64,000 nucleotides of DNA from Kangiella sediminilitoris (GTDB lineage Bacteria; Pseudomonadota; Gammaproteobacteria; Enterobacterales; Kangiellaceae). Position 1 is the first letter of the stretch. The number at the start of each line of letters is the position of its first letter. Where the stretch lies: contig NZ_CP012418.1 of NCBI RefSeq assembly GCF_001708405.1, forward strand, positions 1,888,501 to 1,952,500, in the 5' to 3' direction. Under the pieces are notes generated by a model. It saw nothing but the letters and a program-made list of their open reading frames with translations. It was not told where the DNA came from and did not search any database. Below, one piece after another: positions 41,892-44,546 of this stretch. Made by a program: the position numbers and the translations under genes.

Positions 41892-41974
41892 TAACCTCTG
41901 GTAACAATGGACAATGTCTCACAAAACCTTCATCTTTTACGACTATATCCCTCACACTAATTATAGTTAAATAA

Positions 41975-42160
41975 CAATCGAACCAATGGAATGGTTCCAC
42001 TCAAAAGGACAGGAGTGATGGATTATTCTCAGGAAGAGAATATCTCAGGACGAGAACTCTAGGAAAGAGTCTCTTATGGAAGAGAACAGCTCAGGAAGAG
42101 CTTGTTGGTATAAAGGGGTGTTACACAGGACGTGTACCCCCTTCCAGCAACTTAAAAATG
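41975..42160 (+). ncRNA. Candidate Csr/Rsm-type CsrA-binding RNA (sRNA or mRNA leader)
   Basis: Eight short hairpins follow one another, each with GGA in or at the loop: stems at 41980-41997, 41998-42017, 42024-42042, 42043-42055, 42056-42070, 42071-42084, 42088-42102 and 42122-42136. Five loops are the pentamers AGGAA or AGGAC closed by GC-containing stems, and flanking bases often give CAGGA. Repeated GGA loops of this kind are the hallmark of CsrB/C and RsmX/Y/Z RNAs, which sequester CsrA/RsmA. A -10-like TATAGT lies at 41962-41967; the -35 is poor. I saw no GacA-type upstream palindrome. No U-tract ends the RNA, so it may continue as the leader of the 76-codon ORF. The 3' boundary is therefore uncertain. 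Confidence 0.65.
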
Positions 42161-42183
42161 GATTATGAGAAAAGGAGTTTCCT

Positions 42184-42414
42184 ATGGCTATTAAGCTCAT
42201 ACAAAAATACCAAGGCTGGTGGGATTCCAGTCAAAACCGCGGTTATTTCTGGTTTACTTACTACGATAACGAGCGCAGTCGCTCAATCCCCGTTAATGCA
42301 GAACAGTTTCAAATAATCATGGACATGCTACGCAATGAGAAGCCCGTCTATGGTGATCATACTCGTGCTCTAGTCACCACTCAATCTGAAGAGACTGGAG
42401 AGGAAGAGTCTTAG
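42184..42414 (+). CDS. Uncharacterised 76-aa protein downstream of the GGA-hairpin RNA
   Basis: Family not recognised. The ORF starts with ATG after an AGGAG ribosome site 7 bases upstream; that site lies in a small self-complementary stretch (AGGA-GTT-TCCT), so translation may be controlled. The protein is compact, with an aromatic-rich core (YQGWWDS, YFWFTYYD), a short helix (AEQFQIIMDMLRNE) and an acidic tail rich in Glu (EETGEEES). No signal peptide or membrane segment is seen. Codon use looks like its neighbours, supporting a real gene. A stem-loop with a T-run follows about 30 bp later. Confidence 0.65.
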   Translation: MAIKLIQKYQGWWDSSQNRGYFWFTYYDNERSRSIPVNAEQFQIIMDMLRNEKPVYGDHTRALVTTQSEETGEEES

Positions 42415-42442
42415 TTTTTACAACAGACTTTAAAAGCATAAT

Positions 42443-42510
42443 AGTCAGCGCCTCTAATATCTCAGACTACCCCTAGTGACTTCTGATGAAAAACCGGCGC
42501 TGACTTTTTT
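42443..42510 (+). terminator. Terminator with an unusually long loop
   Basis: Ten-bp perfect stem AGTCAGCGCC / GGCGCTGACT closes a loop of 43 nt and is followed by TTTTTT. It ends the transcript of the 76-codon ORF, and possibly that of the GGA-hairpin RNA upstream. Confidence 0.7.
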
Positions 42511-42595
42511 CAGTACTAAGCTAAACAACAACTTTTGCCAAAATTATTAAGCTCAGGCAAACTAATGCCACCTGTACAAGTCCCGCCAATTGAGC

Positions 42596-44189: not shown

Positions 44190-44546
44190 AAAGAAAAGCT
44201 GGCCGATAAGCCGGATTCTGTCGTGGACAGTCATTCGTCTAGGCCATCAATCGCTCGATGGCTCCAGCAACCTACCCGGTTCCAACGCGAGCCACGCCAT
44301 ACGGAACCCTATTTGGTCTTGCTTCGGGTGGGGTTTACCATGCCGCTTACTGTTGCCAGAAGCGCGGTGCGCTCTTACCGCACCATTTCAACCTTACCTG
44401 CTCCGAAGAACATCGGCGGTATATTTTCTGCTGCACTTTCCGTCGGCTTACGCCGCCCAGGCGTTACCTGGCACCCTGCTCTATGAAGTCCGGACTTTCC
44501 TCTCCTCATGCACGGGGCACGAGCAGCGACTGTCTGGCCAGCTTTG
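44190..44546 (-). ncRNA. rnpB: RNase P RNA, bacterial type A
   Basis: Catalytic RNA that matures tRNA 5' ends. On the minus strand the conserved blocks occur in order: CAGACAGTCGC near the 5' end, GAGGAAAGTCCGGACT, CATAGAGCAGGGTGCCAGG, AACGCCTGGG, TGCAGCAGAAA, AACAGTAAGC, GGTAAACCCCACC, GAGCAAGACCAAATAGG, and near the 3' end GACGAATGACTGTCCACGAC with GAATCCGGCTTATCGG. The outer P1 helix pairs AAAGCTGGCC with GGCCAGCTTT, and the following TTTTCTTTTT makes P1 part of the terminator. Plus-strand reading frames across this interval are antisense artefacts. Confidence 0.97.

Follow-up and report, generated by a model that had tools for sequence, protein, structure and literature searches.

A candidate CsrA-sponge RNA of tandem GGA hairpins upstream of a conserved 76-aa open reading frame in Kangiella

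An array of eight consecutive hairpins with GGA in their loops was found in the window, the 64-kb stretch of the Kangiella sediminilitoris genome analyzed here, where it occupies the gap 3' of glsA (a Pfam glutaminase) and 5' of a 76-aa open reading frame (ORF), with a SpoU-type methylase gene next. The best reading of the array, judged from sequence, is a CsrA sponge under the control of BarA-UvrY, and we consider it probable, at roughly 0.6, that array and ORF form a dual-purpose transcript that would be both a CsrA decoy and the mRNA of a small protein. The original prediction for this region was of a CsrB/RsmZ-like sponge after glsA; it missed the position of the array directly 5' of a conserved ORF.

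The eight GGA positions given in that prediction (Table 1) are all correct, and the eight consecutive GGA-loop hairpins that had been paired by eye are reproduced by the minimum free energy (MFE) fold of positions 41962 to 42180 (-62.8 kcal/mol), including the sixth, whose GGA had been placed at the loop edge and whose A does pair in the fold. None of 200 shuffles of this region was equally stable (z = -4.29). The MFE fold of the putative transcript, 537 nt from 41976 to 42512, holds the same eight hairpins, with less unusual stability (z = -2.56; 1 of 100 shuffles equally stable). A strict scan, which admitted only hairpins with GGA fully inside the loop, 4 or more stem pairs, and a dG below -0.5, returned 7 GGA-loop hairpins from positions 41976 to 42145, a segment with 10 GGA in total. 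The maximum reached in 2,000 dinucleotide shuffles of the array was 4, and the best separate place among 12,766 segments of 170 nt from both strands of the 64 kb had 3, which bears out the claim that hairpins of this density are not expected by chance.

Table 1. Features of the glsA-linked locus, in positions of the window; conservation refers to the seven Kangiella genomes that carry the array
Feature	Position	Strand	GGA	Remarks
UvrY/GacA-type promoter box	41905..41923	-		TGTGAGACATTGTCCATTG in - strand orientation; hairpin 1 follows after ~65 nt
Putative -10, TATAGT	41962..41967	+		read by eye; orthologues TATTAT-like at this place
Hairpin 1	41980..41997	+	41988	GGA loop; GGA kept in 7/7
Hairpin 2	41998..42017	+	42007	GGA loop; GGA kept in 7/7; several compensatory pairs
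Hairpin 3	42024..42042	+	42032	loop AGGAA; GGA in 7/7; five standard pair types at one stem pair
Hairpin 4	42043..42055	+	42048	loop AGGAC; GGA in 7/7; stem of 3 pairs only in K. shandongensis
Hairpin 5	42056..42070	+	42062	loop AGGAA; GGA in 7/7; weak stem in G007 and G001
Hairpin 6	42071..42084	+	42078	GGA at loop edge (A of GGA paired)
Hairpin 7	42088..42102	+	42094	loop AGGAA; stem in 7/7; GGA in 5/7 (lost in G005 and G009)
Hairpin 8	42103..42149	+	42128	long three-part stem, tip loop AGGAC; GGA in 7/7; helices 6-8 of alignment A2 100% paired
Ribosome-binding site, AGGAG	42173..42177	+		contains GGA, possible CsrA site; AAAGGA in 7/7
76-aa ORF	42184..42414	+		acidic C-terminal tail; no Pfam, NCBIfam or PHROG match
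Intrinsic terminator	42444..42510	+		GC-rich stem, 43-nt loop, T run; equivalent in 7/7

The array is present in at least 7 of 20 Kangiella genomes, always downstream of glsA, as found with a covariance model that was built from the seven array sequences and recovers exactly those seven at E < 1e-30. The glsA gene itself occurs in 10 of the 20 genomes, and no array after glsA was found in G003, G011, and G013 among the matches listed. In a midpoint-rooted tree of the 19 carA-bearing genomes, all seven array genomes fall to the same side of a branch supported at 100/99, so that a single gain suffices. Seven hairpins can be matched across the genomes, six of them with GGA in all seven and hairpin 7 with GGA in five; hairpin 6 of the window has a clear counterpart in K. 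shandongensis only, and the number of hairpins in the middle of the array differs between genomes. Each leader contains 10 to 12 GGA.

Covariation was counted on the seven genomes of alignment A2, and alignment A4, which has an eighth, marginal match, was left out of the counts. In A2, 90.7% of 311 cells are paired, and 16 of the 45 stem pairs are changed on both sides, in 25 cells. Four of five covariation measures were reached by none of 500 shuffles and the fifth, the number of pair types, by 12 of 500; sliding the partners along A2 lowers pairing to 37 to 46%. Because A2 places hairpins 1 and 2 of K. shandongensis one base off, these counts are if anything too low. Compensatory stem changes with GGA largely kept, the pattern to be looked for in relatives according to the original prediction, are therefore present.

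The ORF downstream of the array has orthologues in 6 of 61 relatives, with 80 to 89% identity. For the 10 of 15 pairs with unsaturated dS, in which alone dN/dS could be computed, the ratio is 0.005 to 0.064, and by this measure purifying selection on the ORF is strong. In six of the seven array genomes, the conserved ORF with its ribosome site follows the array; in the window, the last hairpin is 23 nt from the AGGAG. The protein falls into no family of the databases named in Table 1 and has no phage match, and its AlphaFold model is weak (mean pLDDT, 60.5). Two small ORFs in G232, a genome of the same order (L143 and L144), have the LRNEKP motif and the EP.GENE end seen in the 76-aa ORF. Their matches to it are weak, with E-values of 6e-4 and 1e-3 among 295 genomes that put them close to chance. 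A plasmid match is absent for one of these two loci; the three ORFs perhaps form a diffuse small-protein family.

No T run adjoins the last hairpin in any of the seven genomes, and hence no terminator is found there. A terminator with a stem of 9 to 12 bp, a long loop, and a T run instead follows the ORF, or its remnant, in all seven. An earlier terminator pattern matched three of the seven genomes and a later one all of them, and the standard terminator scan misses the terminator of the window because its loop is too long. Within the terminator loop, all seven genomes share a ACTACCCC-like motif, with TTTACCCCC in K. spongicola, for which the AGGGG side of hairpin 8 is a possible pairing partner.

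Upstream of the array lies a putative UvrY/GacA-type box, which is conserved and to which nothing else in the genome comes within 3 mismatches. A 21-nt word around the box is identical in the promoter of another Csr-type RNA, linked to carA, in the Kangiella genome G012, and the box region of K. shandongensis likewise has a 21-nt identity with the carA-linked promoter of G017; the longest word in common with shuffled sequence was 14 nt. In Escherichia coli, the UvrY site is described as the 18-nt inverted repeat TGTGAGAGATCTCTTACA in the relevant part of PMC4682653. The box matches this repeat at 14 to 15 of 18 positions in G001, G014, and G005; in the window, the likeness is weak, the best upstream 18-mer lying elsewhere (11/18; shuffle p, 0.24), and three of the seven glsA boxes have a shuffle p of at least 0.05. 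A consensus promoter scan found none on the + strand upstream of the array, and the putative -10 in Table 1 points to a transcription start near 41974 to 41980.

The sponge hypothesis presupposed a csrA gene, and the host genome (2.50 Mb, single contig) has two. They are in tandem after alaS-like sequence (L001, G000:C1:1322444-1323100), carry the conserved core, and are identical in that core. UvrY (NF007018; 322.8 bits against a cut-off of 280) is encoded next to uvrC, and BarA (NF008318) scores 936 against a cut-off of 890. A second, unlinked GGA-rich RNA, RsmZ-like and with its own terminator, was found upstream of carA (G000, L106:1105-1240). This carA-linked RNA is present in all 19 carA-bearing Kangiella genomes, including that of the window; a pattern matched 18 of them, and in G004 the RNA was recognized by eye. 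Most of these loci have UvrY-type boxes some 150 nt before the RNA, whose match to Rfam PrrB/RsmZ, at E = 0.034, is below the cut-off. Another genus of the Kangiellaceae (G026) has a CsrB-like RNA with a terminator (L142), about 200 nt downstream of a site that matches the E. coli UvrY site at 18 of 18 positions. What may be a third GGA-rich RNA, again ending in a terminator and adjoining a DJ-1/PfpI-like gene (named by eye), was noted at L099 (G000:C1:2391819-2392084, - strand) and L141 (G001:C1:224512-224663); its scores are weak, with 19.9 bits against RF00018 for L099 and E = 0.047 against the seven-sequence model for L141.

At curated thresholds, Rfam identifies only RNase P in the 64-kb window; this class A RNase P RNA lies at 44191 to 44545 on the - strand (344.7 bits). 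Comparison with Rfam, which had been proposed as a check, supports the likeness to CsrB in part: CsrB (RF00018) is the best family for the array region, with E = 3e-7 and 32.7 bits, below its gathering score of 71, a threshold exceeded in none of the 20 Kangiella genomes, and RsmX, RsmY, and RsmZ gave no match in the region at E up to 10. We have not filed the array as a member of CsrB because its score lies under the Rfam cut-off and it has no terminator of its own. What stands of the CsrB/RsmZ-like sponge is therefore the covarying GGA hairpins, the two csrA copies, uvrY and barA, the UvrY-type box, and RF00018 as the best match; what falls is the layout of a free-standing small RNA (sRNA), since the array ends without a terminator and is placed like the 5' leader of a conserved ORF.

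From this anatomy, the leader would work like CsrB. BarA-UvrY would activate a promoter just downstream of glsA, giving an RNA that begins near 41976 and extends to the terminator. The eight GGA-loop hairpins of its first 170-odd nt would bind several CsrA dimers and withdraw them from other mRNAs, as with CsrB or RsmZ, and the rest would be the mRNA of the 76-aa protein, with GGA in its ribosome site. CsrA would keep this site closed until the hairpins had absorbed the free CsrA, and the small protein would be made once the CsrA pool was exhausted. From sequence, we infer transcription, activation by UvrY, CsrA binding, and one continuous RNA, as well as CsrA control of the ORF, the sole basis of which is the GGA in the ribosome site. 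That the small protein is itself part of the Csr circuit is speculation, the acidic tail being the only hint.

The nearest competitor is a conventional Csr-type sRNA: beyond hairpin 8, processing or Rho-dependent termination would generate its 3' end, and the ORF would be read through or cut off, its protein having no part in the job. This is unlikely in our view. It is favored by K. shandongensis, in which searches for the 76-aa ORF found only a remnant and the array is nevertheless retained. Double changes distinguish the K. shandongensis array from that of the window in three or more stem pairs (one each in hairpins 3, 7, and 8), and such an array, kept with double changes after the loss of the ORF, indicates an RNA maintained for itself. 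CsrB as the nearest Rfam family and the Csr-type RNAs with their own terminators in other Kangiella genomes and the related genus also suit an ordinary sRNA. Against it stand the array end without a terminator, an ORF that strong purifying selection maintains in the other six genomes, and the ribosome site 19 to 55 nt past the array, a distance that leaves no obvious room for a separate ORF promoter.

The same K. shandongensis locus disfavors a purely cis-acting leader, in which CsrA on the hairpins would control translation of the 76-aa protein with no titration elsewhere. The array directly 5' of the ORF and the GGA in the ribosome site are what such a leader would look like, but control of the ORF cannot be the sole purpose of hairpins that K. 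shandongensis keeps, with compensatory double changes, when the gene is lost. CsrA targets under cis control need fewer than eight sites, and the UvrY-type box is common to the leader and a Csr-type sRNA, all of which makes this reading improbable. A structured RNA unrelated to CsrA, which would serve a structural role or a different protein and in which GGA would be incidental, would fit the score below the CsrB cut-off, CsrA binding being a prediction; we regard it as very improbable given that loop GGA are kept while the stems change and that csrA, uvrY, barA, and the common promoter box are present. Chance or a repeat artifact is scarcely credible: the CTCAGGAAGAG motif common to several hairpins shows that the pattern arose in part by simple duplication, but a chance origin is rejected by the shuffles, the whole-window scan, and the covariation over seven genomes.

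The dual-purpose transcript, if correct, would combine a sponge and a protein output in one molecule, a built-in threshold switch, and K. shandongensis would be a natural case of a sponge that outlived its gene. Kangiella would then have at least two Csr RNAs of the BarA-UvrY type; we found no report of Csr-type RNAs from Kangiella in the open-licence literature. In its treatment of dual-function RNAs, a 2023 review counts the decoy/smRNA among the kinds possibly yet to be discovered (PMC10339803). We propose, tentatively, that the Kangiella RNA may be a natural decoy-plus-mRNA controlled by BarA-UvrY: translation of the ORF on the decoy itself would signal the exhaustion of CsrA. The usual description of Csr sponge RNAs is as untranslated, and search programs require a terminator near the last GGA, according to the pertinent passages of PMC5568370; searches of that kind would overlook the Kangiella layout.

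Among known systems, CsrB/RsmB (RF00018) resembles the Kangiella locus in its tandem GGA-loop hairpins kept across species, in the putative UvrY-type site upstream, and in the presence of BarA, UvrY, and CsrA in the genome. In contrast to the 356-position CsrB model, the Kangiella array covers about 170 nt, lacks its own terminator, and is followed by a conserved ORF. With PrrB/RsmZ and RsmX/RsmY, it would have in common the sponge logic and the control by GacA/UvrY outlined in PMC2375449; the weak resemblance to RsmZ belongs to the carA-linked Kangiella RNA rather than to the glsA array. The Salmonella fimAICDHF and Campylobacter flaA mRNAs have 5' leaders that titrate CsrA, the flaA leader probably binding one CsrA dimer, as presented in the relevant section of PMC4894983. 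The Kangiella layout fits this model of a CsrA-titrating leader of a coding mRNA, with titration predicted; compared with flaA as portrayed there, the array has the hairpin density of CsrB, is kept even without its gene, and is preceded by a UvrY-type box. CsrR1 of Alcanivorax, reported for two species only, is similarly a predicted CsrA-related sRNA out of a 5' UTR, but it comes from the hfq mRNA and, in the portion of PMC9788540 that describes it, has no small protein of its own.
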